A DNA stretch of 64,000 nt from Morchella semilibera (Eukaryota > Ascomycota > Pezizomycetes > Pezizales > Morchellaceae): the NCBI GenBank assembly GCA_009192285.1, contig CM018606.1, positions 248,001 through 312,000 on the forward strand, written 5' to 3'. Within the stretch, counting starts at the first letter, position 1. Every line of letters starts with the position of its first letter. A program made the translations under genes and the position numbers. Shown piece by piece: positions 879-55,585 of the stretch. The notes under the pieces were generated by a model, which worked only from the letters and a program-made list of their open reading frames with translations, ran no database searches and had not been told where the DNA came from.

Positions 879-2592
879 TCATCCTCTGAGACGATTCTGT
901 GACCTCATCAAATGGGGAACTGGGGGAGTAGTTCTGATAATTGGAGCTCGCCGGGCCTCGGAGATCCACATATCATCTCCGGCTGCGGGTTCGATTGTTG
1001 AGGTTCGCTGCGCTTCTACTGCCCATAAGTCCTCGGTGGCTAGGGGTAAAATGTTTGTCATTCGCTCTGCTTCAATCACCCACATATCCTCGTTGGTATC
1101 GATTACTCCGTCGCTATCCATGAGAAGGTCGCTGTTTATAAGCACCGGGTTTCTAGCACTCCCATCTGCCTGTCGAGCTGCGGGACCCTTTTCTCTAGAA
1201 CTTGGGTCTAGCAGGTTTTGGTTGTGGGTCGGTTGGAACCGGAGCGGAATTGCCAACCTGCCGTTGGAGCTAGGCCGAACGTTTTTTAAAGGTCCCCGAA
1301 TTCGCTCGGGGGTATGGTTCTCGCCATGCAGGTGACCGCCGTGATGGACTTCACGACGTAATAGAGGTGTGGCGTCAGAAGCCCTAACGCCTGATGCACG
1401 GTCGATTGCTAGTTTCTTCGGTGTAGGGACGCGGAATTCCCAGATGAGCTCCTCTTTATTGCGCTTCTGCCTTACGGTGCGTAAGAACGGATGATTGAGG
1501 AGTTGAGTCGCGGTGAGCCGACGTTCAGGATTGATGCGAAAGCAACTTTTAATGAAGGCGAACACTATCACATTTTGACAATTAGCTCACAGAAATTGAG
1601 GAAATTGAAGAGGAGAATGTCTGTGGAAGTACAGTTTGGGTTGATCCTGGCTTTGTTGGTAAACCAACCCGGCTTCAAAGCAGCGGTAGTCTCGTATATG
1701 CGTCCTTCAGGCCAGGCAACCGGAGGTTCGTGAAAGGTCATATTGTAGGCGAGCATGCCAAACGACCAAATATCACTAGGATAAAAACCATCAGATTAAT
1801 GTAAGTCGAGCTTTGGTGGGTAAGTAATACATACGCTGGAAAGCCATAGTCACGGTCCGCACACACCTCGGGCGCCATGTAACGGGGGGTACCAAATCGC
1901 TCAGCCATCACTCCCTTGTTTCCATGACACTCCATACTAATACCGAAGTCTGTGATGATGGCACGTGCAGCCCGTGTCTTTGTTGTTAAGAGAATATTTT
2001 CTGGTTTGATGTCTGGTTTGCGTTAGAAACATAGATCTCTCGGCGGGGACGGGTACGAGGGGAGTTCACTTACCTCTGTGCATGATTCCCCTCGCGTGAA
2101 GACCTTCTAACCCCTTCAGAATATCATAAAAGATTTCCTTAAGTCGGAATTCATCGAAATGTTCCTGGGACTCGTACTTGCTAAACAGGTCGCCACCAAG
2201 TGCCAGCTCCATGAAAATATAATCTAAGCTCATTGTTAGATAGGAAGGTTGACACATAGGGTGGGTGCATACAGTTCCGGTTATCCCCCGTGAAGACGTC
2301 GAGAACCTTGGCCCAATTCCCATCTATATTGCTCAAGGCCTGCAGTATAGCAATCTCCTTCTCCACCTGTTTGCAGCATCAGCATCAATGAAGACTTTCA
2401 TGATGGGTGAAGGTAGCTTACGTTCTCTGCAGCGTTTTTCCGCTTGCTCATTACTTTGACACAGCATTTTTTACCGGTGTCACGGTGCGTGCACAGCTTA
2501 ACAGCACCAAAGTTTCCTGCACCAATTGTGTTTCCGAGCACATAACCGTTTACAATCTTTGCTCTGTTCATTCTTGTCTTTGTTCTGTTCAT
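879..2592 (-). CDS. Ser/Thr protein kinase, paralogue 1, six exons
   Basis: Predicted protein kinase of 473 residues. Exons on the minus strand are 2592-2422, 2366-2273, 2223-2074, 2022-1835 corrected to 2012-1835, 1775-1633 and 1564-879; every junction is GT..AG and the sum stays in frame. The glycine loop is IGAGNFGAV, the ATP lysine K46 (CCVKV), the helix-C glutamate lies in VEKEIAIL, the catalytic loop reads MHRDIKPENIL, then TDFGIS and YMAPEV. All residues needed for catalysis are present. After the kinase domain comes a basic, disordered tail that ends in three 19-residue repeats with the pattern D-[ML]-W-x-x-EA-x-R. The start at 2592 gives an N-terminus as short as in the neighbours; an in-frame ATG at 2748 would add 52 Thr/Pro-rich residues. 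Substrate and pathway are unknown. First of four same-strand kinase genes. Confidence 0.88.
921..1091 (-). repeat. three-copy 57-bp coding repeat in kinase 1 tail
   Basis: Three consecutive 57-bp units encode 19-residue repeats that begin EDMWVIEAER, EDLWAVEAQR and DDMWISEARR. The aromatic Trp, the EA pair and the Arg are fixed while the second half of each unit is variable. Such a regular spacing suggests repeated docking sites; this is inference. Confidence 0.85.
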
Positions 2593-3380
2593 AGTGGGTG
2601 TTGGGTATTGTGGAACCGTGGGGTATTGCTTTGGGTGAATTGGATGAGATAGCGCGGTAGTCCTAGTGGGAGAGTAATAGTGGCGTTGAGTAACTTGAGT
2701 TGGAGTTAAGGTTGTGGTGAGTTGACTAGTGTTTAACTGCGATGTCACAAGAGCGGAGAAAGAAGAGTGTTAAACAAGTGATGCACTCAGTCGAGAGGGA
2801 GAAAAGAGAATAGAAAGGGAGATCTTGGTTGACTCGTATGATACGGAGGTGTAACAGAGGGAGCTTAGAAGGTAGATGAAAGGAGGGATGGACAAAGAGG
2901 GGTTCTGCTCGGCGATGAACGGCACGACTTGTGTGTGGTTGCTATTTTTTCAAAGGCCGTGAGAATTGGTGCACATTCCATTCTATAGCAGAGAGGGCGG
3001 ATGGTGCCGGCGGAGAGCCCCCTTTGCATCATTATCGCGTGTGACTACACACTATAAGTACATATACATGCTCTTTCGAGCGGATGTCTTCTAGATTCTG
3101 CACGTAATAGGTTTGCGACTTTTAAATTTTGACCAAGGCCAGGACTGAACACTGTTCCAAACTACAGCCTGTTTGGGCTTTCATGATATATATTGTAGTA
3201 CTTGCACCTGGGGTGGAACTAAGTATTGTCCCAACAAGATTGCACGGCAACCATTCAACCCCACAAGACTTGAGACCATACAGAACCACAGTCACTAGCT
3301 TAGTCCGATTGTATTAAAGTCAAGCCACGGCTATTTCCCCACCCCAAATTTAATAGTTATATCCGACTTGAACAAGCACG

Positions 3381-3778
3381 GCGGGGCCTAGTCTCTTTCC
3401 CAGCCCATACGGTGATGTTATTGGTGGTGGTGGTTCAATACAGGCCCACCACAGTAGAGTCTGGAGCAATAACTTCTCGAAAAGAAACCGGGTTTCTAAA
3501 TGACCCCGCCGGACTTTTTTTGGTAGAGATTCCGGAGTTTCTGGCCTAGCAACCGGGGATTTTAGAGGGCAACCGGGCTCCCCTTGTTGCAGAATCCGGA
3601 GTTTTGGGGGGCTCTTTGGCATAGAGACCGGACTTTTGGCATAGCAACCGGGAAAAAAAAGGACTGGTACGAACCTTTTGGGTAAGCACACCAGACCGTT
3701 CCGGTTTGTGAAAATAATACCCCTGTAACTTCAATCACAAACCAGTTAGGTCTGGGAACGAGACTAGGCGGGGCCGGT
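3381..3778. mobile_element. MITE-like element enclosing a minisatellite
   Basis: An inverted repeat of about 18 bp (core GCCTAGTCTCTTTCCCAG at 3386-3404; its complement CTGGGAACGAGACTAGGC at 3754-3773) bounds a segment of about 400 bp. It has no coding capacity. No target duplication could be fixed. The interior is dominated by a degenerate tandem repeat. Confidence 0.55.
3486..3660. repeat. degenerate ~22-bp minisatellite
   Basis: About eight diverged tandem units of roughly 20-30 bp resemble ACCGGACTTTTGGCATAGCA. Every unit starts with CCGG followed by a T-rich core and a GGCATAG-like end. The last two units are the best preserved. Confidence 0.7.
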
Positions 3779-5191
3779 TCCTATCTTGCGCGAGAGACAA
3801 TCCTGAATTTCGCGGCAAGTACATCTCTACTTACCCCTCGGCACTATATTGACCAGGTGACCCAGAGAGGCAAGCAAACGGGCAAGAAAACACTTATATA
3901 TCGAAAGGAAGTGCAGAGGGCTTGCAGATCCAACTCTACATACCATGTATGGTGGGTTTCCACAAGTAAGCGAACATTGACCTTGCAACCAAAATTTGTA
4001 TGGGAATGCAACTTTAAAGACGTATTTCTCCACAACCACAAGGAGATGGAGCAGGAGAACCTTGGATATAGATTCTCCAGCTGTGATAGTACCTACGACT
4101 AAAATGTCAGCTCGAGAGTGCGACTTTGAAATTTTGATGTTGTTAGGTGGTTTGTATGGTTACTACCCTCATGTTCAACTACTTGTGGCACCGTGCAATA
4201 CATACATGTAGTCAGTGATTCGAACCCCAGTCCCAGAACTCAACCCCAACAGGGATTAGCGGCGGGTCACGGCTAACAAAGAGGTACAACTACTCTACCT
4301 TAATATACCAGACCCCGCTTCAACCCCGCAGGTCTATGGGTAGATAGAGAAGAGGCTCTCTAATGTCACACTCCGGTAAGGGGTAAAGTCCCTATACACC
4401 CCCCAGCCATAGCATCACACCCCCACAACCGCCCTTGTCACTGATATATCTCTCCCTACTTTAAATATCGGTCGTGGAGTGCTGCTTTTGTGTAATTACT
4501 ATCTAGCTAGCTAGCTCAATGATTCCCCCGTTATGATATTACCGTAGCTAGGGGCAAGGTAACTACCCAGTACAATGATCCTGAAGCTTGAGTGACAAAG
4601 GTAATAGGTAAAAAGCCCCAGTTTGGTACGAAACCATCTATAGTATATTCAGCGTGCAGTAAAAAAAGAAATGTATAGTAGCTACAGCCTTGCCACTTTG
4701 CTAAGATCAAGGGAATACTCAATACTGTCTGTATATGTATTATCATAATATAATATAGGAGAATATATAGTTTATACAGGCGCTAGGTCATATCTCGAAC
4801 CTGTATCTGGGATTTTGTATTCATGTAGCAATGGAGCATATATTATATCGAGTAGAATAGTTCAAGTAGCAAAATATGGCCATATCTAACCCCATTTGGC
4901 TTGTTCTTAGTAATTCATTTGCGGCGCATTATAATAGTCTTTTATATTGCGCGTAAACTCCGTTACAAACAAGCTCCTTCGGGAATTCCAAATGCAGATA
5001 AAAAAACCCGAAGGAAATACACAAAACTCATAATATCTGGAACAGAATACTTTCAAAACAGGAACGCCAATGAAATCTTGAACCATCTCAAGGATTATAC
5101 CCCCAAATCTCTCTCCATGTTTATCTCACTCCCCTAGTCGAACATCTTGTGGTCGCCATCGCTACCAATATTCGGTCAGAACTGGTTTTGC

Positions 5192-6154
5192 TTATTGTTT
5201 GAACCAGTTGTGCTGGAGTGCCTCTTCAGCAGACATCCTAGTCTTCGGGTCTCCGTTTAAGCAGGCTCTGATGAAGGCATTGCCATTCTCTGAGAGACCA
5301 GGTGGGAAAGCCTCGATTTTACATTCGGTATCGCCTTCAAATTCGAATAAGATAGCTGGCTCGGTGGGGAAACACATGTTCCAGACAAGGATACCGAGAG
5401 ACCAGATATCAACCTCGGTGCCATAACTGCTGGCCCAAGTCATTTCTGGTGCCATGTAGCCCCGAGATCCACACCTGACCTGGAGTGGTTCTTCGGCAAC
5501 GTTGCAAAAAGCTGAGAGACCAAAATCGGTGATCATTGCTGGAGAGTCATCGGCAGTAGTCTTAAGCAGAACGTTCTCGAGTTTGATATCACGGTGGACG
5601 AGTGATCTACTGTGCATAGCTTTCAGTCCGTGAAGGATGTCTTTAGTGATGGACCTAGCTCGGTCCTCGCTGAACGGACAGCCTTCACTAAGGTCGCCTC
5701 CTTCGGCAAGCTCCATAATAATATACCCTATTTGAAAGAATGCAGATGTTAGAAGCTAGAAGTTTAAACACATATGAGAGCAAAGCAATGCGGGACAGGT
5801 TATTACAGTATTCATGACGACTCTGGGCTTGCACAAAACCGACAATATTTTCGGAAGCACCACGAATACTCTTCATAGACCTTACTTCATTCCTGTACTG
5901 TATTATGGAGTCATAATTAGTACCTTATCGAATACGGTCCGTGAATTAAATAGTGAAAGGATTGAGCTGGGGAGACTTACAGCTTTAACTTCGTCTTTAT
6001 CATCTGACGCAGGAATAATCTTAATGGCATAACTAGCTTTCGACTGAACATGAGTACCGACTCTAACCTCGCCAAATGACCCAGATCCGAGAGTTCTCCC
6101 AAGAGTAAAGCTGGCTGGGTTCTCGATCTGTTGCGTTGTGAACAAACTCATCAT
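5192..6154 (-). CDS. Ser/Thr protein kinase, paralogue 2, three exons
   Basis: Predicted kinase of 266 residues, essentially a bare catalytic domain. Exons are 6154-5981, 5897-5807 and 5727-5192 with introns of 83 and 79 nt. Visible motifs are LGSGSFGEV, K45 in YAIKI, the helix-C Glu in YRNEVRSM, IIMELAEGGDL at the hinge, VHRDIKLENVL, TDFGLS and YMAPEM, then VDIWSLGILVWNM. The catalytic set is complete. The two introns sit where kinases 1, 4 and 5 also have introns (phase 0 before helix C, phase 1 before the hinge), but the three downstream introns of those genes are absent. Start chosen at the first of two adjacent Met codons, giving a 58-residue first exon as in kinase 5. Further upstream codons in frame look like leader sequence. 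Confidence 0.88.
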
Positions 6155-8350
6155 TGTGTTTGGTGTTTGTGTGTTTGTTGGGGGTTTGGTGTCTTGTGAT
6201 ACGAAGTTGTGATACACACATAGGCAATGAATGGCGGAGAAAGCTTATTCTTGAGCTGTTAAGGGGATAATGGTCCAGTGTTGTGCGAAAGTGCTTTGGT
6301 GCTAAGGGTGGGGGTGGTGCAGATAATAAAAATATTATGGCCAAGGAGAGATTCGGAGGTATTTATAGCACTAGTAAAACTGAGGCGCTAGGAACAACTA
6401 CTCCAACAATAGAGGGAAAGTATATGATTGGGTATGTATCTTGCTGGGCCGGGCTTGTATCAAAACCCGTCGAAACAGCTAAGGCGGTGAATATCGTAGG
6501 GAAAACGAATGGTATGGAAACTAGACATTGACACCATACACAAATTAGTGCTGATTGTACCGATGGACCTCAGATGGACAACACTCTCTCTTCTTTCCCA
6601 GCAGCGGATGCCAAATTTAAATGGCTCCAGAAGTGACGCTGGAATGATAGAGGTAGAGATGGATGAATTCCCTGGTTTATAGTGCAATAGGTAAAATATG
6701 ACATGATCACTTTCATGACATGAAGTGTATCGTATAGTATCATACTTTCATTGAAATCTCATTAAGAGTCTCTTCGCCATTTGCTCTTCTAAGCTGTATC
6801 GTTTCTGCCCGAATAGTTTTCTAAACATGAGACATCATTCGTTCCACTATGATAGAACATGTTGAGAAGTGGGGCGAGATAGGTATGCGACCTAAAGTGG
6901 ATAATGGACCTATCTATATTTATAGTCACGGATCAAGGAGAACAGATATGATGACAGGTATCGACTTCATACTCAATTTAAACGGAACACCTGTTCGGGC
7001 CCGACATCATTTGGGAAGCCAAATATCAAACAGTGCATTTTGTTAAAGTTGTATGCTAGTATAACACTATGGAGCGGAGAATGAAATATATTTTTTTTGG
7101 AGATTATGGCGTTAAATCATACCGATACGCCCAATTAAGAGCCCCGCCAGGGCTCCCCTGGAAATGACTCTAGCTAGCATCTAACAACGGTGAGGGTTAA
7201 TTATTTAATCGGTGTATTGAACAGCAGCCAGTAGAGGCTAGTGGGTATACAAAAGGCTGTACCTCTGTCTATAGCTTAGCACAGCTAGCCGTGTTTTGTT
7301 CAGCTATCTTACACCAGTGCAAACTTTCTGTATAAAGGCTCCCAACCCCACTAACCCGCCGGGCCACAACCCCACGCCCCATATCATCAACTAAACCACT
7401 GCCAAGATAGGTTTACCCTCAAATCACCGCCCCGAAAATACAGTAGTAATCAGCTAGCAACAACCCTCTGGACCTCCCTGCCACTATGTTCGTGTGGCAC
7501 ACCGTCACCGCACACGCGCGCAAATACCTAGCTACGGGGCCTCACGGCCCGCCAGCGGGTGCGCCTCATTGAAGGAATATATAAGGCTAGCAAAAGGAAG
7601 GAATTCGTGAATATGGAGGCGTACGCGTGCGGGGTGGGGTGGGGGGGGGGGGAAGGTGGCCCTGAGCAAAACAAGAAATAAATTATGACTGCTTATTGAG
7701 CCCTCTGGAGTGACAATGAAGGTATATCCGTTACTGCCTAGGTTTGGTTCTTTGTAACTTGTACACCTCGACCAGGATATTTCGGTCGCCTGATTGATAG
7801 TATATCTAATTATACATGATTGAGAAAGCGATACACAGAGCCTGTAGATCAAGACTGGAGCTTTGATGCAGGAAGTAGGCCTTGTACTCGGAGTGGTTGG
7901 CAGTGTGGTGCCTACCTTACCCCGCAATTTACCCCGCAATTAAGTGAACTAAGTAAAGGCATATAGGGGGAGGAAGAGGAGCCACGTGAGAGAGAGTAGT
8001 ACATCTATGCTTCTTGTAACCAATGAGAGCTAATGGCTGGTAGTACCATAAGTAAGGCCTAAATAGCTAACAAAAGAACTATTCGAAAAAGGTGAAACAG
8101 ATTAGAAGAGTGGAAAAAGGCGAGCTGATAGAAAAGTGGAACAGAGTAACAAATAAGCAGACGTAGAATCCAAAGAAGCCATAGATCTTATCATAAGGAT
8201 AGCACAAAATGTATGTAAAACCAGAAAATGACGAAATGAAATTGAAGAAAGAAATAAAAAAAAAAAAAAAAAAAAAAGAGAGCATCCTGCATGGCAGAAA
8301 TAACACGCCAACCACAAGGTAGAGAGTCTTGCCGCCCTCGGCCCCAGCAA
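6155..8350. other. intergenic between kinases 2 and 3
   Basis: No supported gene. The only longer open frame (7532-7939, minus) crosses a G12 run (7641-7652) and is of biased composition, so I do not call it. An A-tract of about 22 nt lies near 8256-8278. Its orientation is poly-T relative to the kinase 3 transcript, so it is not a retroposed poly(A) tail of that gene. Confidence 0.5.
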
Positions 8351-9349
8351 TCACTTCCACAAGTAATGGGAGCCTTCCCGCAAATCCTCCATTCTTCTAT
8401 CCCTATCTTCCGCTGAGACTCCCTCAAATTCAGGTCCTCGCATTTCCCACTGTTGTTGACCAACATGTGCATTTGGAGCTGCTTGTCTCCTCGTGATCGC
8501 ATCATTCGCCCTTCGGAGAAATGGGTGGCGTAGCGCATCTCTTGCGGATAGCCGCTTCAAAGGATCGGGGGTCAAACACTGCTCCATAAATTGCGCCCCC
8601 ATACGCGATAGGCAATCGTCCACATCTAACCAGCACTCCTTGAGTCCTACAACCTCGCATATAATGTCCACCCTGTTGTCGCTCGCCTTCCACGGGAACT
8701 TGCCGAACCACAGATTGAACATGGTGATCCCAACGGCCCACATATCGGCAAGAGCCTCATGTTCCTGATGTAAGTGGATCTCTGGAGCCATGAACTCCGG
8801 GGTTCCCTTACGCCCGACAGGCCCATTGCGGTAATCACGACAGAACCCGAAATCGCAAATAGCAAGGCGGGAATTGACCTCGGAACTAAGCAGGACAATG
8901 TTTCCTGGTTTGATATCGCGGTGGACAAGTCCTATCTGGTGGAGCTCCTTCAATCCGAGGACTATATCAAGAATAATCTCTCCCAAGCGGAGTTCACTGA
9001 GCGGTGGGGGGTTTCGAGGAAGGATATATTTTGTCTCAAGATCTCCACCTTTTGCAAGGTCGGTGATTAGGACCCAGGCGTCGTCTCGGTCAACCAAGTG
9101 AATTAGTTTTACTAAATGGGGGAACGAAAAGGGTATCTGATTCTTCACAAGCTGCATCGCACAAAGTTCGGTATCGAATATGGCCCGGATATCAACAGAC
9201 GGGTCGGGGTGCCTCGCCTTATACATCCACTTGGCTGCAAATGCAGCCTTGGTGTACTGGTGAGTGCATATATAGACCCTACCAAAGTATCCATTCCCTA
9301 TCTGTCGCCCCATCTTGTACGAATCGATAACCTTCCTTCTTTCCGGCAT
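8351..9349 (-). CDS. Ser/Thr protein kinase, paralogue 3, intronless
   Basis: A single open frame of 332 residues encodes a complete kinase domain. Motifs are IGNGYFGRV (about residues 17-25), K40 in AAKWM, helix-C E61, ITDLAKGGDL at the hinge, HRDIKPGN at 143-150, DFG at 166-168 and FMAPEI near 187-192. The C-terminal lobe continues through ADMWAVGITMFNLWFG and ends with PLKRLSARDALRHPFL, followed by a short charged tail. The catalytic loop has Gly in place of the usual Glu (DIKPGN), which is common in several kinase groups. No intron is present at any of the five positions used by the paralogues. Likely cytosolic; no membrane segment or signal peptide. Substrate unknown. Confidence 0.93.
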   Translation of the reverse strand: MPERRKVIDSYKMGRQIGNGYFGRVYICTHQYTKAAFAAKWMYKARHPDPSVDIRAIFDTELCAMQLVKNQIPFSFPHLVKLIHLVDRDDAWVLITDLAKGGDLETKYILPRNPPPLSELRLGEIILDIVLGLKELHQIGLVHRDIKPGNIVLLSSEVNSRLAICDFGFCRDYRNGPVGRKGTPEFMAPEIHLHQEHEALADMWAVGITMFNLWFGKFPWKASDNRVDIICEVVGLKECWLDVDDCLSRMGAQFMEQCLTPDPLKRLSARDALRHPFLRRANDAITRRQAAPNAHVGQQQWEMRGPEFEGVSAEDRDRRMEDLREGSHYLWK

Positions 9350-11200
9350 TTTTGTTGATCTTAGCTGGAGTTGGTTTGTTCCTGTACCTTGGGCAAGACG
9401 CCTTTAGGATTCTTCTCAATACAGCTGCGGAATGTTAGTTTATACGGAGTACTCTAAAAACGGGAGAGCGGTGAAAGTCATGTACATGGGAGACTACGAT
9501 AGATTTTTGATGGCTGTATACCAGCAAGGTCGATATTTGGCCTGCCTTGTGACAGTTATAGGGATTGGAGAAATGGATTGATGAGGAATAGGTTTGGAGG
9601 ATTTTTTAATTCGGTTGGGGATGAGGAGGAGGAGAAAGTGACGCAAGGTACGTCAAAGAGAGTTCTTATATACGCCCGATTTGCCCCGGCTATCTGCACC
9701 TGTCCTTGGCACATGGGATAACCGAAATGATTGGTGTGGGCTAGGTTATACAAATACTCAAATCGGGTGGAATATGTGCGTTTCCCAAGCACCGGATTTC
9801 ATTCACCCATGGTCAAATTTTTTCTGTGTGACTCATTGCTTGGCTACATGCTCTGTGACACAGGGAATGTCCCTACTACACATCACTTCTTGAGAGCTGG
9901 ATCATGGAGTAGCGACTAGTTTTTATGTACTCTGCAGGGTAAAAGGATCGTATCAATAAAAATATGCAGGGAATTCCTTCGTGTGTTTAAATTATGGGTG
10001 TATGGTATCCCCACCCCAGGTTTACGCCTTGGGCGCGCCACACCATGATTGGTTGCACCCAAGATCTCAAACGGCCGCAGGAGCTGGAGCGGCCAATCAT
10101 ACCCACCCATTACACAATAGCCATTCTAGATCTTATAATTATAAGCATATCGTTTTTCGAGTTAAAAATCTTCTGGAAGCCCACGTTACACCGCCGGGAT
10201 ATTATCTCTTAACTCGCTTATCGTTTGTTTTATTTGTAATAGCCATATAGTCACCAATTCCCCTTAGGTTACGTGTCTCTATAACTTTGTACTTGTTTAG
10301 CACCAATCAAAAATCCCAGTTTCTCAGTCATTGAATGGATCTCGCATATTTATTCTTTGTGATACAATCGTACAAGATTGGTGATATCAGAGGGGGGGGG
10401 GGTTGATTAGCAACAACCGATATTCCTTCCTGTCGCATCGCATGTGATTCAACTAGACATGGCGAGATAGAAATACCTACAATATACTACCAAGTAGTTG
10501 TGACTCTAGATCTCCGGATACACTCCTCCACCACCCCCAACCCACTCCCCGGCTACAGATCATTTTTTAGGATAGTGATATGACTACATATAGTTTGGGC
10601 CGCCACCGACCTACCCCCTTTCAATATTAACAGAAGTGACCTTCCATCTCATTCTTTTATATAATCTCTCTGGTGTATGCTGTTGTCTCGCAAGAATGTA
10701 ATCTTTTTATAGAATGGCATACGGAGGCGGTATTGCCGGGAGTCCGGCTACAACAATACATGTACGCTATTACGAGTCGAACATAGCGCGGAATAGTGAT
10801 CCAGAAGCAACCGCAGATGGTGAAGAATCTGCGGTACATCTTCAATCTCTACGGTCTCTAACAGGGTACAAGCCTATGTAAAGACAGGTCATACAGAACT
10901 CATTAATATGTGGTAATTGAAAAAAGAGTAGAGATGAGTTTATTCGTAAACGTATCTGGCCATACCTAGGCCTACAAAGGGTGCTGGCATGATAAAAGTT
11001 ACAGATAATATCCATGACCAATTTCATGACCAGCTAAATATCTCTTCCAACACTGACACTGGCACAAAAGATAAAGGCCGGGCTAACAGGGCCGCCAGGG
11101 ATACGTATACAATACCGCCCAAAGGACGAAAACGTAATTCGAACCGTTATAACAGGAACGCCTGCATTCCACCAACCGGTGCAGATCATCCATCCCCTGC
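9350..11200. other. intergenic between kinases 3 and 4
   Basis: No supported gene on either strand. Notable only for a G11 run at 10392-10402. Open frames are short and overlap each other. Confidence 0.5.
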
Positions 11201-12586
11201 CTAATTACCCAAGATATTCCTGAACTTGGAGCTAATACCGCCGCAAAATGATCCCAAGACGGAATGCTCGAATACAGTTCCTTCTTCAAGAGTCATGATA
11301 GGTAAGCTGGTCTCCCGCCGCACAACCTCGAAAAACGGATGATATACGGCCTCAATAGCGGTCAAGCGCCTCCTAGGGTCCACAATCAGACACTTGGTGA
11401 TAAGATCCCTCGCTATATAAAAACACGCGGGTGTTAGTAATGCTAGCATAGGGGTCTTGATTGTTATCGTTATCTCACCTAGAGGACATCCAATACCCTC
11501 CATGTGCTTCTCAACCCAACCTTCCTTTAAGTTTGAAATCTCCTCAAACATGGCGCGGAACTGGTCTTGCTTGTAGCGGTTCTCCCACGGGAACCTGCCG
11601 ACTAAGAAAGAAAGGAGAAGGATTCCAACCGACCACATATCACTACACCACAATTAGCACGGGCGTAAACATACTTAGATTGGAATATTACAATGGAATC
11701 CCATATAGCTTGCCGCTGCAGGCCTCTGGTGACATGTAGTCTGGACTGCCATACGGACCCTTGGCCGAATCATAAGGTCTCTTCATGTCGTATTTTATAG
11801 TAAGTCCGAAATCACCAATCATTGCTCCAGTGAATAGGTCCAATTCGGGGAACATGATATTCTCGTGTTTGATATCTACCAGGTGCATAGAAGTGAGTAT
11901 CTAGGTGAGGCCATTTTGTTAAGATTGGGGCTTACCTCTGTGTATATATCCATTCTTGTGCAAGATGGACAGGCCATGAACTACACTGAGCCCGACTCTT
12001 GAAAGGATGGTGTAATTAGACTCATGGTGTTTTCTTAGGTCTTTAATGGTATATCCAACAGCGAGATTAACAATTAGAGCGACTAGAATTAAAAGTGGGG
12101 GGGTCAGCAAAGTTGAATCCACAAGTAGTCACCTTATCAGGCGCCTTGCTTTGCTTTCTTGTACTGGTAGGGAATGAGGCAGGATCATTACATTCATAGG
12201 GTGTTTCAATTGCCTCGTGCAACTTGATGAAGCTTTGGCCAGGAATGACCGAGATGACTCTCATATGTGCAATCTCGTCTTGGATCTAAGTTGATGCATA
12301 GAAATAGTAAGTAAAGGGGCGTCTAAGTTGTAAGGTAAGATCGATTGTGGCTGATACATACAGCTCGACGACTTCCTCCGGCGGCACGTAGGTTAGCTTT
12401 ATTGACGACCTTTGCCGCCCAGTTGAGCATCTTGTCCCCATCATAGAGCAAAAAGACATTAGAGGTAGAACCTTGGCCGATGCATGGACCAAGGATATAC
12501 TTTCCAATCCTGTGTCCAGGACCACGGATTGGATTGTAGGGCACGTGCTCGCCAGGGCGGCCGAGAATTATAAGGGGGCGGGACAT
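11201..12586 (-). CDS. Ser/Thr protein kinase, paralogue 4, six exons
   Basis: Predicted kinase of 364 residues. Exons are 12586-12362, 12285-12123, 12082-11936, 11875-11692, 11642-11479 and 11412-11201; introns are 76, 40, 60, 49 and 66 nt. The 40-nt intron is short and its donor (GTGGAT) is the least certain junction. Motifs: glycine loop IGQGSTSNV, in which the third glycine is lost; K59 in WAAKVV; helix-C Glu in IQDEIAHM; hinge ALIVNLAVGY; IHRDIKHENIMF; GDFGLTI; and YMSPEA, where APE has become SPE. The essential Lys, Asp and DFG residues remain. An insertion between helix C and the hinge (Thr/Ser/Lys-rich) is longer than in the others. Overall the most diverged member, though still apparently active. 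Confidence 0.85.
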
Positions 12587-15500: not shown

Positions 15501-17395
15501 GTGAATGACGTGTATTTAGCCAGAAACCTTTGCTTCAAGCTTCCTCCCTCCCCCCTGGCATCTGCCTTCCACGCATCAAAATGAAAAAAATCAGAAAAAC
15601 TAAAGCACTTAAAGATCCTTTCCCATGTACGATTCACAGTAGAAGCCATCCCGGAGCTTTCATACCCACTTATCTAACTTGAGCAGATACTAGAGCAGTC
15701 TCATAGGACCCATAAATTAGCAGTATCCACAAAGCTAAGTACCTCAAAATCACCAGCGGCCCTAATCCACGAGGCCGCAATGCAAGCGGGGCAAACGACC
15801 TAATTTCGGAATAGATGTGTACCCAACCTGACAGAACACAGCCACAAGTATGAGGCTACGAAGTAGAGAATATCTATCATAGAAGCTTAAAATCAAAACA
15901 CAGTATAGAGAGTCTGCGTCATGGGGGGTCACTCGGATCCCTCAGCCCTGGACTCAAATAATTTATGAAGTTTCTCATTGGGCCTAACTGGGCTCACATA
16001 TATGTCCATCTAGTACTTTTATACTCTTATCATCACCTTTCACACCACCCCCCCAATGAATTTTGATTCTATTCAGAAACACTCCCGGTGGACAGTGTAG
16101 ATGCTTTCAATAATCAAGAGGTGATTACAACAGTCCCTACACGTTATGATAAAGGATACATAATACAAACATAAACTGTCTGACATCCTGTCTCTTAGTA
16201 GCTATAGTGCACCCTGGCACCATGCTAGACTCCGAAGCTCCTGAATTGTACATAACTCTCTTTAAGCATGAATCATGAGGGTCAAGAGTAGCTATATTTT
16301 CGAACCAATCACATGAGCAACAGTTAAGCCAGCTCGCTAGTTATTTAGACATATCGCGTTTGGCTGTTGGTTCTTTAAGTGTATGGTTGAGTTGAGTATG
16401 CGAAAGCCCTCCAAACGTCCACTCTTTTGAATATTAAGGTACCACCACAGTAATGATTGCATGGGGACATGTACGGCATTTTATCAGGGTGAACCGCCGG
16501 AACATATTATCTTACATCCCTAATACCGCCGTCTAATTTAGGGGATGACTGCTGGTTCCCACGAACATCAAAGAAAATGTTTTACCTGAGCCAAAATAAC
16601 CGTTTTGGTGGGCGTCGGCCTTATCTAGGCCCGCGGTGAAGATATTGCACAGGATTCATAAGCAATGATATCCGGCGGGGGCCAAGTCAATATCTCAGAG
16701 TTAAAAGAATATTTTTACTGTTACTGCCTCATAGGATTATGCACAGATGAATACAGATTTGAGACCAGATACTCCAAGATGTGAATTTCAGTTCTTGTCT
16801 AGTTAAGATCTGAGAGGGTTAAATAATTCGGATCCATTTGGTGAGCTCTATCGAGTGATAGGTTGTGACTCACAAGCGAGTGATACCTGGTGATTAGGAC
16901 TACGAAACCAACATGTTAGACCAAAGGTGACGATGAAGGGACAAGTAGGCTGTCAGGAAGATTCCCGTATCTATATCCCAATATCCCATACCAGGCCTCT
17001 CTCCTGCGTTGGGGTTATTACAGATGATATGGCTCATTCCTAACCCGGTGATCTAGTACTGCTAGCATTAACGCGCCTGGGACACACTTCCTCCTAGAAG
17101 CTGTGGGTGTGACCTCACAAGAAACCTCCCCATACAAACCTGCGCACGCCTTCCTAGCATGAGAATTAAATACATATTCTATAGGTATCTTGCCAACCGA
17201 ACAGTTGTTGAGATTAAGGAAATGATTCAATAGACTCTTTACCCTATGGACCTACAATGATCCTTTTAAAAGCCCGTTATAGGTCCGGTGGATCAATTAT
17301 TCACAAACTACAGGATCAATTATTCACAAACCACAACCAGCCTGCGTAAGCAAAATTAACCACGACTAAACACTCCTACCCGCCCACCCCAACTT
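12587..17395. other. 4.8-kb stretch without a supported gene
   Basis: Open frames here (for example 13518-13916 minus, 14908-15213 plus, 15413-15649 minus) overlap one another and show no domain, no plausible start context and no splice pattern. A short copy of the GGGCTGCATGCA repeat lies at 13890-13915. The stretch is otherwise unique-looking, decayed sequence. Confidence 0.45.
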
Positions 17396-17755
17396 ATGGA
17401 AAACAAACCTGAACCCGATGCCATTATGTATGGTAATCAAATGATTGAAGGCATGCTTCAACGGATACCCGAAGCTGAGAGAAAGCTGAAACGCAAGATT
17501 AAAAAGCTCCCAAACGTCCAATCTGCGAAAAAGAGCTATTTTAAAAACCAAAGGATAGAGGAGTGGTCGAACCTTGAGACCTTGGAATACATGATGGGCG
17601 ACATCCTGCAGCAGTTGAAAAGTTCGGGATACGAAAAATACCCAGTTTTGAGGGCGAGGTGGGCAAAGGTGACGGCAGCTATGCAAAAGCTAAAACAAAC
17701 GATGGAGGAGCTGGATCGAGTCTGCGTTCAAGAGGAGAGGGTGAGGCCAGAATGA
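17396..17755 (+). CDS. small helical hypothetical protein
   Basis: Intronless frame of 119 residues, basic and almost entirely predicted helix. The N-terminus contains YGNQMIEGMLQRI, followed by a Lys-rich segment (ERKLKRKIKKL) and two amphipathic helices separated by a GYEKYPVLR loop. No signal peptide, no membrane segment, no cysteine pairs. The upstream sequence is C/A-rich as in fungal leaders. It is the first of three small same-strand genes within 3.6 kb and shares the YGN-x-[ML]-[IF]-[ED] start with the next one. I do not recognise the family. Confidence 0.65.
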   Translation: MENKPEPDAIMYGNQMIEGMLQRIPEAERKLKRKIKKLPNVQSAKKSYFKNQRIEEWSNLETLEYMMGDILQQLKSSGYEKYPVLRARWAKVTAAMQKLKQTMEELDRVCVQEERVRPE

Positions 17756-18172
17756 TGAGGTGATATAAATTCATGGGCCATCTAGCTTTGATATCTAACT
17801 CTATGGGGCATTTATATGTATACTAATATCGAGAGCTGTTGCGGTGGTCCGTGGGGGGCGGCGGGTGCAATCCTCGAACTCTTTAATACAATTATGCATG
17901 CTGCTCTGGTACTTTATATTGGATAGCCGTCCCGTTCGCTGTGAAAACTCAATTAAATCCTCCTACATGAACTGGTCAACCACCGATCGCTGAACGTAGT
18001 TTCTTTGCCATCCACCTTCAAACAAAACCATCCACTATTTGACAAGGCTTATCCAACATCGTCCGCTAATTCAAAAAGTCACTCCAGCACCACCCCCGAG
18101 CCCACGCACCCACGCACTATCAACACACCCGAACCCACTCGATACCTCTAAATTCGCAAGAAACCTTAAGCT

Positions 18173-18412
18173 ATGGCTGAAGCCTATGGGAACGAGCTCT
18201 TTGATAGCATATTTAGCAAAATAGAGACGTTCCAGCAGAACGTCATACAGAACCATAAGGCTGCACAGGAAGCAATATGTGATGGGTTCGTGTTCTGGAA
18301 TCAACAAATCGAACAGCAGCAGGCACGCTTTGATGTCCTGAAAAATGAGATACGTGGGTTCTACGACAAGTTGGAGGGGATCAATGTAATTATCAGACCT
18401 TTCCTGCATTAG
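18173..18412 (+). CDS. small helical hypothetical protein
   Basis: Intronless frame of 79 residues. It starts MAEAYGNELFDSIFSKIETF, which aligns with the start of the gene at 17396 (YGN, then hydrophobic-acidic pair, then I at +12). The rest is a continuous Gln-rich amphipathic helix. A C/A-rich leader of about 400 nt separates it from the upstream gene. Possibly a coiled-coil interaction module. Function unknown. Confidence 0.6.
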   Translation: MAEAYGNELFDSIFSKIETFQQNVIQNHKAAQEAICDGFVFWNQQIEQQQARFDVLKNEIRGFYDKLEGINVIIRPFLH

Positions 18413-20579
18413 TTAGGAGGAAGAAGATGGCAGATACGTCATTTGATGGAATGATTTGTCACTTGAAGATTTACAATGAGTATTGCGTTGGAAGGCGCGA
18501 TATATTCTGCATATCGTTAATTTAGTTGAGATAGACTATATAGTTACTTAGTAGCGATGCACACACAATATCTTTGAGTATATTATTATTAGGATCAGCC
18601 AGGACAGCTACAGAGCATCCCTTTTGTTTCATCATTTGGCTAGTCTAGTAATAATTATATCATCTTTTCCTCAAAAATCGTATTCTTTCACACTGTCTGG
18701 GGTACTAGTAACTAGTACCCACCCTACTACACCACCCCTAGCTATATAACCAGTTGGCGGTTGGAGACGGAGATAGCAGTAGCACTCCAATGCAACTAGC
18801 ATGGCTTTAACAATACGCGCGCTGGAGACTAGACTCCTTGTGCCGACTGCATAATGAAGGCGCCTTTATTCTACCACATATGGTGTCCTGAGGGCCGAAT
18901 ATATTGTTATCTACGACAACAAACAGAGACGAGTACTATTTCATATCCGCGGGATATCCATTGTCTTCAACCTTCACTTGCAACATAGAGATCTAGGTCC
19001 CTCGACAACCACCCCCAACGCGCTACGAATCGCGCCGGATAGCTCTGCAGCTGGCCGGTGCTACTCCGGTCCTTTCCAATGTGCTCCTAGGTGTCTTCGG
19101 GGTCGGTGGAATAATTAGATTTCAATACAGATAAAGGCAGGATACAGGTTAGGATCCCAGGAAGCAAATTATTGGTAATCCCAAGCTATCTGTAGATCCT
19201 GAGACTTATCAATATGAGCCGATTTTTTGCTGTTGGCCGAAGAGGTCTCCGATCGGGAGCCACGTATGAAACCCCCCGTACTCGATTTTAAGTCGCGCCG
19301 CAGTGTACTCTTAGATCATATCCAGAGTCTCGTAGGATTGTTGCAAAACTGGTTCTTGCATGACCCGATAGTCTTATCATTTTGGCCCCTAGAGGAAAAT
19401 GAGTAGATAAAGAATTACAGTCCTCAGGGGGTGGGGATCAAACGCACCCCCATACACAGCTAAGGAAACCATTCCTCCACGACCACCCCATATCCATGGA
19501 TCCCCGACAACCACTAGCCCACAGCCTCTCAACGCATGGTGGTAGTGACCCTTTTTGCTCTCTCAAACCTTCTTTGGGTGATTGGGAAGAAAAGAAAGAT
19601 GACCCAACCTAGCCCCTAAGAATTCCCAGGCGGTTGGCGTTTAGAATTAAAGTCAGGTACCGTTCTAAAATTTCTTGGTCTATGCTTGCAGCAAAAAAAT
19701 CCTTTAAGTTAGGACTGTTGGTTCGCGGTAAAACTACATTTACAATAGTTCTACTAGAGTCTGTATGGGACTGGGAGAGCTGGTGAGGGAAGACCATCTG
19801 TTTGCTTTTTGCTTTTGTGAGTTTGTGCGCCTCTAAGATCTCCTTTGTTTAATTCATTTTTTTAGATACATCGTTCGAACATATAATCTAAAGGCTGTAC
19901 GCTTATCACCGGGGGGCCCGATGAGATGATAATCTCCGGGTCTGGTCAGAAATTATCACTGACCTCCCCCACTCACATCTTTATAGCACGGTCCATAGGG
20001 GGCTCCTCCCTGAATTCCTAGCGATTCGCGAGATACCTGTATGTAGCCGTTGTTGCACAACCCGAAGACAAGTCTTAACCGAGTGAGATCTCATGAACTT
20101 AAATTCCCGGAGTTATGACTGCATTCAATACAAACAGTGGTGGATGTTAGAGCTCCAATCATTGTATTCCCTTAGCACGTCATCGATGGATGATCGTAAA
20201 GAGTTGGTTGGCGGACCAACCAACTTGCTTTCCCGGATGCTGGGTGTTCATCCAGACCAATCAACTGCTTTCCCGACAGATCGATCTCCACCGGGTCGCA
20301 CATATATGCAATAGGATATAGGAGCCGTTATAGTTCTGTACGCCCCCACGTACCCTGTGACTATAAAATCCTTCCGTTAGAATTGGTACCCACCGTTGTT
20401 ATGCATTGATTCTAGCCCTACAATCCGCCCCCCACCCTCCTTTTCATACGGTAACTCCCATACCCGACGGAATATTAAACCACAATCATTCAAATACTCG
20501 GTCTCACAAATCCCTCTAGAATATAACAACTATCAAAATCTCATACCTCAAAGAAACAACCTGCCAAGCTTGCGCCAAC
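18413..20579. other. intergenic, with one strong hairpin
   Basis: No supported gene. The ORF at 20093-20314 contains a perfect hairpin and is not called. Nothing else was recognised. Confidence 0.45.
20203..20224. repeat. perfect 9-bp hairpin
   Basis: GTTGGTTGG (20203-20211) and CCAACCAAC (20216-20224) flank a four-base loop CGGA. It lies about 350 bp upstream of the small gene at 20580. Too short to be a transposon end by itself; could be a binding site or RNA hairpin. Confidence 0.6.
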
Positions 20580-20948
20580 ATGTCCAACCCAAGATCAAGC
20601 CCAAACACCTTAGACGACCCTCTCAGCATCGCTAAAGGGCTGTTCGATGACATGATTGACGACTGCGAAGACTTTAAGCGCCTGACGGATGATGGCCACT
20701 GCTTGAACCGAATGACAGGGCGCAAGAACAGCTACTACTGGCTGAACGAGGCCGATATACAGATGACGACATATGAACAACTGAAGAAGGGAATCATAGA
20801 AACGTTTGACGACATCGAGCGCCGTGTCGGCACGGAGTATTGTGGGTGCGGAGGGAGAAAGGGGCTATTTGACGAGGCTTTTGACAAGGCGGATGAAGCA
20901 CAGAAGCGGTATGATGAGTACTGCCATCAGCGGGCGGGTTCTGATTAG
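20580..20948 (+). CDS. small acidic helical hypothetical protein
   Basis: Intronless frame of 122 residues. The segment GLFDDMIDDCEDFKRL near the N-terminus resembles the LFD-x-x-x-x-x-I-x-x-F motif of the gene at 18173. A middle part reads YYWLNEADIQMTTYEQLKK, then a CGCGG cluster, then a Tyr/Asp/Arg-rich C-terminal helix. Strong bias to purine-rich codons and a CAACATG start context support translation. No transmembrane segment. Family not recognised; perhaps a third diverged copy of the 17-18 kb gene type. Confidence 0.65.
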   Translation: MSNPRSSPNTLDDPLSIAKGLFDDMIDDCEDFKRLTDDGHCLNRMTGRKNSYYWLNEADIQMTTYEQLKKGIIETFDDIERRVGTEYCGCGGRKGLFDEAFDKADEAQKRYDEYCHQRAGSD

Positions 20949-23038: not shown

Positions 23039-24646
23039 TTACAATCCATCATTGTACTGTACACCATGAAAATCATCAAAACAAGTCTCGCAAAGCGACA
23101 CATCACACTCCTTACAACCACGAGAAGGCTTCCTAATGACAAGAGGTGTTGGGGAAACTTGATCGTTCCACCTACACAGAATACAGACGGTCCTAGATGG
23201 CCTAGATTCCTTCTCATGTAGGGCCGGTGGTGGGTACCTGACTGGCTGGGGGCGCTCGGATGGACGCTTTTCAACCTGTTGGGACCTTGTATCTGGTTTT
23301 CCTTGGTATGTTGCCTTTCTATGCCCCCCTTTAGGCTTTTGATGTAAAGGCGGTACCCCCTTCCCAACCCCAATATGACCTGTTTGGCCCCCCAGCTGCG
23401 CGGCCCTAGATCCCCTTCCCTGGTCATCGCTTATTGATGGGGGTGGTGCGTGTGTAATCCCAGCACCCCTCCCCTGTGCCTCGTCCATCGTTGTGGGTAG
23501 AATATAAGGACCCCCAAATCCACTCCCCCGAGCCCCATTTACGGGATGTGGAGCATATATACCCCCAGACCCACTCCCACTCCCATCGGTCTCTTTCGTT
23601 CCGGGGGTCGACGGGCGCCTAATCTTCATGACGCTCCTAAGTGACTGCTTGTAATCGGCAAGAAACTCTTCGGAACCGCTGCTGCGAGACGGGGAGAATG
23701 ACGGGGCGTTGAATCTGTCCAAAGCATCGCCAGTTATTTGGAAGTCACTGCCAATAGTATTAATACTTTCCCCTCCATCCTCTATCTGCGGATATACTAG
23801 CTCCCCCACATCCGCCAAAGCATCAGTAAAGCTCTCAATCTCTGGTACCCCCATATCCATCTCCTCCCAAAGATTCGGTGCGACATCAGCAGTGCTCGTG
23901 ATCTCAGGTATCTGCATGTTCACCTCTAGCCCCGGATCCAAGATCGCACCGATAAGGTTTACATCTCCGCGAGGATCTGGGTCTATCGGGGCCACGCGAG
24001 CCGGCACCATGTCAGTTGGAGCTAGGACAGTAGTAGCCAGTTCGGCCGGAGCCAGCTCGGCCGGAGCAGTAGTATTAATCAATATATCTGTCAGATCAGC
24101 TGCATTCGTACGAAGTGCATTTGCGATCATGTGAGTATCCTCAGCGCTTTCCCTCATTTGCGCCGCTGCACTCAGCCCCTCACCCTTCTTCATAGCGCCG
24201 GCGAGTTTCCTGATGATGATAACAAGATCCTGTACAATATTAGTCAATCCTAATACCCCGCTAGCTAACTCTCGCTCGGTCACGCCGCCGCCGCCTAAAG
24301 ATATAGAGAGATCAAAGGAGGCATTTCCAAGCTGTCCAACCCTCGTAGAAAGCTCCTCTATGCCCTTTTCCAAATTGTCTATAGGTATCTGAGAGACATC
24401 AGCAATTCCATACATCTCTAGAGCTATCTGTAGTATCAACGGGGCCCTCACATCTCCGTCGTCCTTCGTAGATATAAAATTGTTCACCGGCGTTCCCATC
24501 TTTGGCCGCTTATGTTCGGAATCCAAAGGACTTGCGGAAGCTTCCCCGTCATTCGAGGCGGCGTCGTCGGAGGGGTCGTGCAGGCCAAGATCCATCAAGG
24601 CATTATCAAAAAAATACGAAGCTGTACGGTCATGTTTGGGCGCCAT
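23039..24646 (-). CDS. orphan protein with piggyBac-like cysteine-rich C-terminus
   Basis: Single frame of 535 residues, taken from MAPKHDRTAS rather than the upstream in-frame codons. The first 220 residues are acidic then helical (a Gly-rich loop SLGGGGVTEREL near 170). A Pro/Ala stretch repeats APAEL twice. The middle is acidic, and residues about 370-480 are low-complexity Gly/Ser/Pro. The end carries C488-x2-C491-x19-C511-x2-C514-x4-C519-x2-C522-x4-H527 with RGCKECDVSLCETCF. This Cys spacing and the V-x-L-C-x-x-CF signature are those of the cysteine-rich DNA-binding module at the end of piggyBac transposases. No DDD transposase core is visible. It may be a fungal gene that captured the module, or an unrelated zinc-binding fold. 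Probably nuclear (HKRPK near residue 45). Confidence 0.75.
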   Translation of the reverse strand: MAPKHDRTASYFFDNALMDLGLHDPSDDAASNDGEASASPLDSEHKRPKMGTPVNNFISTKDDGDVRAPLILQIALEMYGIADVSQIPIDNLEKGIEELSTRVGQLGNASFDLSISLGGGGVTERELASGVLGLTNIVQDLVIIIRKLAGAMKKGEGLSAAAQMRESAEDTHMIANALRTNAADLTDILINTTAPAELAPAELATTVLAPTDMVPARVAPIDPDPRGDVNLIGAILDPGLEVNMQIPEITSTADVAPNLWEEMDMGVPEIESFTDALADVGELVYPQIEDGGESINTIGSDFQITGDALDRFNAPSFSPSRSSGSEEFLADYKQSLRSVMKIRRPSTPGTKETDGSGSGSGGIYAPHPVNGARGSGFGGPYILPTTMDEAQGRGAGITHAPPPSISDDQGRGSRAAQLGGQTGHIGVGKGVPPLHQKPKGGHRKATYQGKPDTRSQQVEKRPSERPQPVRYPPPALHEKESRPSRTVCILCRWNDQVSPTPLVIRKPSRGCKECDVSLCETCFDDFHGVQYNDGL

Positions 24647-29178: not shown

Positions 29179-29880
29179 TCAACTACATGTATCTTGTGAC
29201 ATAGCGATCAACGCCAACATCGACTGCTCACACATCCAATGCACTGCCCATATATTTTCGTTCTCCAAAAGCCCAACCAATACCTTTAGTTTGACAATCC
29301 GCCGACTACTCCGTCTCACTATGGCTCTTACAGCCCTTTTCACCTGCAGCCAATCTGCATATATCCTCCCCTCTGGCAATAGCGGTCTCTCATACCCTTC
29401 CATGTACCCCACCAGTTCGTCGATCTCCTCCTCGTAGCTAATAATTGTGTTCCTCATGATAACCATATTCTGCGCATCCTGTGCCTTTAGCAACTCACGC
29501 CGCTCAGCCCGAAGCTTGACCTCCACCTCCCTCTGGGCCGAAAGCCACTCATTCACCCTCCTAGCCAACCTGCACAGGTTTCTGCGTTTTATAATGATAT
29601 GGCTGAGGGCATCAGCCCCAGAATCTAAGGCTAGCATCCTATCGACTTTCTCCAGCTTCCTGGCAATACGCTTTAGAGCTAAAATGGCCCGTCCACGGCA
29701 GATCGAGAACCCATGCCGGCGCGCATTATTCTGTTGTAGGAGGGTGGTGTAGTTGATGTAAACGTTCCGTGGGAATAATGCCCCTGTGGCAGGCTGGTTG
29801 ATAGGACTGCTATAAAGTCTATCGGGTTCACCTAGTGGCAGTGAGGAACCAGGGCCGTTACCACTCCGCACGTCTTCCAT
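29179..29880 (-). CDS. coiled-coil orphan protein, larger paralogue
   Basis: Frame of 233 residues from the first ATG (MEDVRSGNG); codons upstream have no ATG. After a Pro/Ser-rich N-terminus comes LFPRNVYINYTTLLQQNN, a GRAILALKRIARK helix, an Arg/Leu-rich helical core and RAERRELLKAQDAQNMVIM. This core aligns with the neighbouring gene at 30309-30689 over about 110 residues (LFPR-x-x-Y, GRA, ERRELL-x-AQ-x-x-QN). The last 90 residues are unique to this copy and include YEEEIDELVGYMEGYE and a basic helix. No membrane segment. Function unknown. Confidence 0.72.
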   Translation of the reverse strand: MEDVRSGNGPGSSLPLGEPDRLYSSPINQPATGALFPRNVYINYTTLLQQNNARRHGFSICRGRAILALKRIARKLEKVDRMLALDSGADALSHIIIKRRNLCRLARRVNEWLSAQREVEVKLRAERRELLKAQDAQNMVIMRNTIISYEEEIDELVGYMEGYERPLLPEGRIYADWLQVKRAVRAIVRRSSRRIVKLKVLVGLLENENIWAVHWMCEQSMLALIAMSQDTCS

Positions 29881-30308
29881 GGATTTTGGTGTAGATATAC
29901 AAAAAATGGAGCAATCGTGTACAGAAAAAACACCTGTTTTTTTCACCCTTAACAGAATTGTTCAGGGATTACACTACGGGGTGGTCTATAGGGCCCTAGT
30001 AGTAACATAACGGGCGAGGCTAGATTGAATGGAGTCAAGGCCTTTTCTCACTTCTTAATCTAAAACCACTCAATGATAGGAGAATTTACGGGATTCATTA
30101 CTATGTACTCCTTCGGTATCATGTGATGCCCCCTCTCACTCCCTAAAAATTACAATTTCTTCTTTGCCCCCAATCGACATGTCCCCCAGCGCTTCTACTC
30201 ATTCCACAAACCTCCAAGCAACCAGCATACCACCAGGCTAAATTTAAGATACCACGGGAGGCTTTTCCCCCACACTCGCCTCAGGTTTCTCTTTCTCATC
30301 TCCTGCTT

Positions 30309-30689
30309 TCATCTCATGTACTCCCCGCAGATTATATCGCAATTTTGATAATACTGAGCCACAAGCAATTCCCGCCGCTCTTGACGAAACTGAAGTCCTC
30401 GCTCCTCCATTTTCTTCAAACGGCAGTCAATCGCCTTGTATTGCTCACTCAGCTTACTCCGTCTTGAAATGAGAAGTCGAATTCTGAGCCCATCCTCCTC
30501 TACCTCTAATCGCTCGTTGGTTGACAGTATCTGAGCGGCTATATCACTCAGGGCGCGCCCAGCCCTCCTTATCATGAACCGGTATACATTGAAGCCTGTG
30601 TTGTTGTTGTTGAGGCGCTCATCATAGTCCACGTACGTGGTTCGCGGAAATAAGGTTTCAGAGGTCTGTTTGTTTTGTGCCATATCCAT
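30309..30689 (-). CDS. coiled-coil orphan protein, short paralogue
   Basis: Frame of 126 residues (a second ATG lies two codons in). It starts MDMAQNKQTSETLFPR and continues YVDYDERLNNNNTGFNVYRF, a GRALSDIAAQIL helix and RQERRELLVAQYYQNCDII, then stops where the downstream copy continues. It is a tandem relative of 29179-29880, same strand, 430 bp apart. The shared core is helical and basic, which suggests a coiled-coil or nucleic-acid-binding role; not proven. Confidence 0.7.
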   Translation of the reverse strand: MDMAQNKQTSETLFPRTTYVDYDERLNNNNTGFNVYRFMIRRAGRALSDIAAQILSTNERLEVEEDGLRIRLLISRRSKLSEQYKAIDCRLKKMEERGLQFRQERRELLVAQYYQNCDIICGEYMR

Positions 30690-38143: not shown

Positions 38144-39367
38144 CTAATCCTCACTTATATCCTCCGGCCAACCGCATTTCGCACCCCACAAGACCTCAAC
38201 CGATGAACATTGTTTACGATATGCCAAATTCTCGCTACTCTCCGAGAACTCCGGAAATCCTGCGAAAGCATGGTACTGCAGCGCCTCCCGTGCGGTCCAT
38301 CGTTGGGCCGGATCGACGGTCAGGCACCGTCGAATGAAAGTCTCTACTACTTGATATCAGCACGAGGAAAACGCTAAACTCCGAGAAAAACGAATCTAAA
38401 ACCTACCGGTTTCTGAGCAGGCCAGTTGTAGATATCCATGGCAATTGTCAACGTACTCCTCTGAGTCGGAGTCCTCAGCGAAAGGGAGCTGTCCCATGAT
38501 GAGCAATGACGCGCAGACGCCAACGGACCACATGTCTCTATATTCTTGTCAGTCACTACCCCAGTTACCAACGTCAGATGCGGCAATAACCTACACGCCA
38601 AAACCATATCCGCCATCTGAGAAAATCTCTGGGGCCTGGTAGCCTAATGTTCCCACCCTTCCGGTCAATTTCTCCCCCTTACTTACGGTAGTCGCCAGTC
38701 CAAAGTCGCACAGCAATATTCTCTTAGGTTCGTCCTCCTCATCATTTATGCCGAGCATCTCTTCGATCAGAATGTTGCCGAGTTTGATATCTATACCTTG
38801 CGGTCAGATTACCCGCCCCCCGAAAGGTAGAGAGGAAGACTTACCTCGATGCACGATATTTTTATCGTGACAGATGGCCACTGCTTGGAGAAGCTGGTGT
38901 ATTATCCTCATCATTCCAGCTTCCTTGATATACCCATGATCTTTCCTCCACATACTCATATCACCGTAGACAGCCAGGTCCATGACAACATGCACTAATG
39001 CCAAATGTCGTCAGCTAGTATTAAACAATCATGGAAAGGCGATACTTACGAATGTCCTCGACATAAAATATATCGATTATCTTGACGAAATTACCCTCCA
39101 CACTCCTCAGTCCGGCCATGATTTCGAGCTCCCGATAAACCTCCACCACAAGTCAGCGAAAGCAAATAGAGACTGAAGGAATCTCATAGTTACCGCTTTT
39201 TCCTCTGTTTCAAGAGTCTCTTTGCTGTATATCTTTACAGCAAGTAAAAGTCCGGTTTGGATATGTTCGCATTCGTGCACGGCACCAAACCCGCCTACCC
39301 CAAGACACTCCCCAACCCTATAAGGACATGGGACAAGCGAATCTTCTTCATTAGCTTTGGGGTCCAT
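38144..39367 (-). CDS. Ser/Thr protein kinase, paralogue 5, six exons
   Basis: Predicted kinase of 314 residues. Exons are 39367-39194, 39140-39050, 38994-38845, 38790-38595, 38537-38407 and 38346-38144; introns are 53-60 nt and all GT..AG. Motifs are LGVGGFGAV, K45 in LLAVKI, the helix-C Glu in VYRELEIM, HVVMDLAVYGD at the hinge, VHRDIKLGNIL, LCDFGLA and YQAPEI, then VDMWSVGVCASLL and FIRRCLTVDPAQRWTAREAL. The catalytic residues are intact. Exon 1 (58 codons) and exon 2 (91 nt) have exactly the lengths seen in kinase 2. It lies 25 kb from the other four, in the same orientation, and has the same five intron positions as kinases 1 and 4. Much of the 3' half is only visible after splicing. Confidence 0.87.
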
Positions 39368-55502: not shown

Positions 55503-55585
55503 GGCTGGTTGGCGCAATGGTAGCGCGTGGTCCTCCTATTCAGATAGTAAGACCGAGGTTGCGGGTTCGACTCCCGTGCTGGTCG
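55503..55585 (+). tRNA. tRNA-Arg(CCU) with an 11-nt intron
   Basis: Acceptor arms GGCTGGT/GCTGGTC pair with several G-U; D stem GCGC/GCGC; anticodon stem TGGTC/GACCG; anticodon CCT at 55535-55537. The loop is interrupted after position 37 by 11 nt (55539-55549). T arm GCGGG-TTCGACT-CCCGT. Discriminator G at 55585. Confidence 0.9.

Follow-up and report, generated by a model that had tools for sequence, protein, structure and literature searches.

A tandem array of six diverged kinases in Morchella semilibera, probably derived by local copying of a CaMKI-type gene

CaMKI carries a C-terminal autoinhibitory, calmodulin-binding segment, and it is phosphorylated by CaMK kinase at a T-loop site three residues before the Gly of GTP (position -3 in what follows). 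CaMKII and DAPK, which function without T-loop phosphorylation, are known from animals, and CaMKII and DAPK1 both have regulatory tails. Among fungal kinases, the FunK1 family (PF17667, Pkinase_fungal) is noted for its expansions. As a case of kinase expansion in an ascomycete, the published kinome expansion of the Fusarium oxysporum species complex (PMC6001611) is a parallel to the array reported here. For morels, a literature search returned no CaMKI-derived kinase array in Morchella among the matches listed, though one may already have been published; in those portions of the main texts of four morel genome papers that were available, the word "kinase" is absent (PMC7014384, PMC13208314, PMC6164635, PMC10868677).

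The window, by which we mean the whole stretch of 64,000 nucleotides that was analysed (C4:248001-312000, within a searched genome of 56,756,124 bases in 23 contigs), was described in an earlier sequence-only reading as holding four Ser/Thr kinase genes head-to-tail on one strand and a fifth in the same orientation. Manual splicing bears this out. Four intact genes, K4 to K1, follow one another on the minus strand at 879-12586, and the fifth, K5, is likewise intact and on the minus strand at 38144-39367. K1 (879..2592, 473 aa), K4 (11201..12586, 341 aa) and K5 (38144..39367, 314 aa) each consist of six exons, at 2422-2592, 2273-2366, 2074-2223, 1835-2012, 1633-1775 and 879-1564 for K1, at 12362-12586, 12192-12285, 11936-12082, 11692-11875, 11479-11642 and 11201-11412 for K4, and at 39194-39367, 39050-39140, 38845-38994, 38595-38790, 38407-38537 and 38144-38346 for K5. 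K2 (5192..6154, 266 aa) has three exons (5981-6154, 5807-5897 and 5192-5727), and K3 (8351..9349, 332 aa) is a single, intronless exon. The five frames are free of internal stops and all their introns are GT-AG; those of K1, K4 and K5 were also recovered by a purpose-written spliced-alignment program.

The extent of the array had been given as four genes plus an outlier, with its left edge at K1. That edge has moved, as a sixth kinase gene, K0, extends the array leftward. K0 encodes 636 aa on the minus strand at C4:243802-245997, outside the window and 2,004 to 4,199 bases left of its first base. It was first seen as a weak match at C4:245021-245371 when the genome was searched with K3, and the gene was then spliced. 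Five kinases, K0 to K4, therefore lie within 16.8 kb. When 110 or 150 kinase genes were scattered uniformly over 56.76 Mb, a null that has no tandem duplication in its model, five fell within 16.8 kb in 0 of 20,000 trials for either number. The next 1.1 kb leftward of K0 gave no further kinase match, profile scanning at high sensitivity picked up neither an additional kinase nor a kinase relic within the window, and genome-wide protein searches with the six array queries, in which the best candidates were scored, listed no other kinase on C4 between K0 and K5.

All five kinases of the window match Pfam PF00069 at 145-199 bits. Each also has a local match to the FunK1 model, three of them above the cut-off, but at 19-36 bits over 68-89 residues these matches are short and score far below PF00069 in all five, so that the window kinases do not belong to FunK1 as a family for which PF17667 is the best, full-length model. 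The alignment confirmed that K1 to K5 keep the Lys, Glu, HRD and DFG, as had been proposed, and the same is true of K0; the residues that follow DIK in the window kinases are PE, LE, PG, HE and LG, exactly as first read. The Asn, the APE Glu, the Asp of DxW and the late Arg are also present in all six, which places K0 to K5 among the active-type eukaryotic protein kinases by their catalytic residues. Pairwise identity is only 26-34% among K1 to K5, and K0 is at most 27% identical to any sibling. Since six open frames keep their catalytic residues despite such low mutual identity, catalytic function seems to be maintained by selection, and we predict that the six proteins are active kinases.

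The same genome contains a CaMKI-type gene on another contig (C12:547.7-548.9 kb), of which the kinase domain is known here and whose best PDB chain is CaMK1D (6qp5, 262 bits). We compared the array with the kinases fetched from its own genome by phmmer, using the first 504 of the 636 residues of K0 both here and against the PDB. K5 scores highest with CaMKI (150 bits, followed by the CaMK-type gene L046 with 109 and K1 with 108) and is the top scorer to the resident CaMKI among the six. K1 (CaMKI 138 bits, then K2 134) and K4 (CaMKI 104, then K1 93) show the same preference. The best non-self match is a sibling for K2 (K1 at 130 bits, then L058 at 125 and CaMKI at 124), for K3 (K1 at 124) and for K0 (K4 and K3 at 65 each). 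Outside the array, CaMKI is the best match of K1, K3, K4 and K5; for K2 it is preceded by one bit by L058, a CaMK-type gene, and for K0 it comes next after L003.

The best PDB chains are a CDPK for K0 (55.8 bits), CaMKII for K1 (133.3), a CDPK for K2 (116.1), DAPK1 for K3 (107.3), CaMKIV for K4 (97.2) and CaMKI for K5 (122.9). Taken with the matches in the genome itself, they assign to the array a CAMK-type domain that is nearest to CaMK. For all six kinases the best match in the genome itself, sibling or CaMKI, outscores the best PDB chain, narrowly so for K1 and K4. The sequence-only reading had held that a closer orthologue in distant fungi for each kinase would speak against local expansion. 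Within the comparison made here, with the fetched kinases of the genome and the PDB, a sibling or CaMKI is the best match of all six, but K1, K4 and K5 prefer CaMKI over their siblings. This means that separate duplications from CaMKI may have contributed, above all in the case of K5.

The introns provide a second record of descent. K1, K4 and K5 are interrupted at profile columns 45-50, 83, 133, 192 and 243, with phases 0, 1, 1, 2 and 1 in all three. K0 retains four of these five sites (phases 0, 1, 1 and 1), K2 the first two (phases 0 and 1) and K3 none. The resident CaMKI gene has four introns within its kinase domain, and each of them coincides with an array site in both position and phase. 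Allowing a tolerance of one column, and bearing in mind that the gene models of the other kinases were themselves predicted with an array-derived profile, we counted shared sites in 66 models (the 70 non-window models minus the duplicate fetches L057, L059, L060 and L061): the CaMKI gene shares four, five models share one and the remaining 60 share none. A scripted estimate puts the chance of a four-out-of-four match at about 1e-7 for a single model, before correction for the 66 models. The intron at column 133, which splits HR|D, occurs in K0, K1, K4 and K5 and is absent from the CaMKI model; as it is also found in L046, it may predate the array.

The array and the resident CaMKI thus have in common a CAMK-type domain and these four intron sites with their phases, but they differ at the T-loop and share at most 38% identity over the domain (K5). 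At position -3 the array carries G, E, V, G, G and G, from K0 to K5, and Ser or Thr in none of the six. Among the other kinases of the genome, 53 of the 55 scored have Ser or Thr there (seven of 62 non-array kinases were set aside, the search motif not being found), and the two exceptions, L010_4369 and L035_149, both belong to a second kinase family, F2, considered below. Fisher's test gives p = 5e-7 for this difference, a value calculated over family members that are not independent; the most sensible reading of the loss is therefore a single ancestral change or a single shared release. In our alignments, CaMKII and DAPK1, the best PDB chains of K1 and K3, also lack Ser or Thr at -3, which means that a kinase of this type can still be active. 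As none of the six has the T-loop residue of CaMKI, we class the array as CaMKI-derived and not as members of the CaMKI family.

The C-terminal tails that follow the kinase domain differ in both length and kind. The K2 protein stops where the domain ends, and the tails measure 38 aa in K5, 40 in K4, 51 in K3, 198 in K1 and about 330 in K0, where part of the tail is made up of repeats. By eye, a basic repeat of about 40 residues occurs roughly four times in the tail of K0 (C4:243802-244907).

Phylogenetic trees were built from a subset of the kinases of the genome. The larger tree, with 68 rows, was derived from the 70 non-window models by removing the four duplicates and L066 (replaced by the longer CMK_C12), leaving out models below 190 columns (L017, L024, L028, L031, L064 and L068) and adding nine rows (K0 to K5, CMK_C12, C9_115 and C1_5931); it includes the best-scoring non-array locus for each array query. 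The smaller, with 33 rows, further leaves out 28 of the 31 rows labelled F2 and seven others. A single branch unites the six array kinases in the larger tree (67/72, 74% of 200 bootstraps), and the branch with the six recurs in the smaller (61/69, 63% of bootstraps), where a further branch (54/70) separates the six plus three CaMK-type genes from the rest. End branches are long, reaching 1.86 changes per column for K0 in the larger tree and 2.47 for K0 and 1.6 for K4 in the smaller. The monophyly that had been anticipated among the kinases of this genome is thus recovered, but with weak support, and the trees neither reject nor prove a single origin.

Based on the shared intron sites, the common absence of the T-loop Ser or Thr and the weakly supported trees, we propose that the array is a local family that probably arose by tandem copying of a CaMKI-type gene, followed by deep divergence. 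Expansion from one ancestral gene, as originally suggested, is favoured by the introns and the T-loop, with weak backing from the trees, and it might, as was also suggested, be specific to a lineage; the case for descent from CaMKI is fairly good. We regard the array as an unusual local gene family and not as a new kind of system.

The main competing explanation is that these are old CaMK-type paralogues, produced in one or several rounds before Morchella and still linked in many Pezizomycetes, with nothing lineage-specific about them. The low identities among K1 to K5 are compatible with an ancient origin no less than with rapid change, and K5 is the member nearest to CaMKI. However, no array-type gene was found elsewhere in the genome among the best candidates scored, a result that leaves the array undated. 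We regard this explanation as unlikely, though deserving of serious consideration.

If local copying from CaMKI is correct, a CaMKI-type gene would have been copied repeatedly in place, and the copies would have diverged deeply, losing the T-loop Ser or Thr while retaining the catalytic residues. The products would be Ser/Thr kinases that require no activating phosphorylation of the T-loop, as is the case for CaMKII and DAPK. Control by calmodulin may have been lost, and regulation could have shifted to expression, to targeting by the tails or to other partners. Our guess, and a plain one, is that the kinases act in signalling under expression- or tail-based control. Should the model be confirmed, the locus would show with unusual clarity how a conserved signalling kinase can be duplicated in place, a whole group having been released from its upstream activating kinase while ancestral introns record the descent. 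We suggest that the morel kinome deserves attention. A far more speculative scenario, which we consider a long shot, is that CaMKI was turned into a bank of fast-diverging kinases, free of T-loop phosphorylation and embedded among genes for orphan small proteins, that would serve recognition or conflict (for example self/non-self, or against mobile elements) and not housekeeping signalling.

It is also conceivable that rearrangement assembled six unrelated kinases from different ancient families, each of which would have a distant orthologue of its own. The best PDB chains do differ from gene to gene, no starred branch of the trees joins the six, and the percent identity of K2 is highest to an F2 kinase (40% to L012 and 35-36% to other F2 rows, compared with 34% to K1 and K3). 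These identities also weigh against local copying from CaMKI, as do those of K0, whose top row is L008 at 29%, and of K4, for which L019 and CaMKI tie at 29%. Yet the common intron sites and phases, together with the common absence of the T-loop Ser or Thr, argue against such an assembly, which the introns already disfavour, and the best PDB chains, all of which we take to belong to the CAMK group, score below the array or CaMKI matches within the genome. We therefore judge it very improbable.

Kinases in tandem also occur elsewhere in this genome. F2 is a separate family of at least 33 members, set apart on a 100/100 branch in the 68-row tree and spread over many loci, and four of its members lie in about 11 kb at C1:4026020-4036842 (L009 and L010). 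Its introns are mostly of phase 0, near profile columns 63-68 and at 138, and scans of six F2 open frames revealed ankyrin repeats in L021 and an SH3 domain after the kinase in L013. The notion that fungi rarely hold local kinase families is contradicted by this four-member tandem of a different family, and in the present fungus such local groups are not uncommon. That the array is itself part of the F2 expansion is scarcely credible: both are expanded, partly in tandem, and identity between K2 and several F2 rows lies at 35-40%, but the array lies outside the F2 branch and has different intron sites, and the F2 rows scored, apart from the two exceptions, have Ser or Thr at -3. A genome-wide Pfam search also showed many kinase matches that start near model position 127. 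The idea that the array forms part of these was dropped, because splicing assigned most of those fetched to a different family, one whose genes carry a phase-0 intron at column 138.

As for the array of K0 to K5, its surroundings include small orphan open reading frames. Between K4 and K5 they lie on the plus strand at 17360-17752, 18170-18409, 20520-20945, 34733-35293 and 36071-36337 and on the minus strand at 29182-29961 and 30312-30749. The orphan frames that were scanned had no Pfam match. By eye, their products are charged and helix-like, and they occupy a lower-GC part of the window. The frames at 29182-29961 and 30312-30749 are a diverged neighbouring pair (about 35 bits), the only clearly related one when ten orphan frames were compared, and a genome search with the 29182 protein found no relative except this neighbour. 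None of the ten gave a tblastn match in the fetched kinase loci. The orphan frames are tied to the kinases by position alone and serve as context only.

Some scaffolds of the assembly resemble each other closely. The pairs C9/C10, C12/C13 and C21/C22 gave the same kinase matches at nearly equal coordinates in the genome-wide Pfam search, the C22 kinase at 1985844 having no C21 partner there. One stretch of 901 bases of C13 matches C12 with 100% identity, as does one of 801 bases of C10 with C9, and the assembly may thus include redundant scaffolds.

Within the window, a 596-aa open frame at 23042-24829 has no Pfam match, nor does a further small orphan frame at 44052-44423, which is helix-like by eye. 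Ordinary genes begin rightward from about 49.9 kb, with a CYSTM protein at 49888-50214 and a ubiquitin-conjugating enzyme fragment at 54712-55284, and tRNA genes are found at 55503 and 61797.
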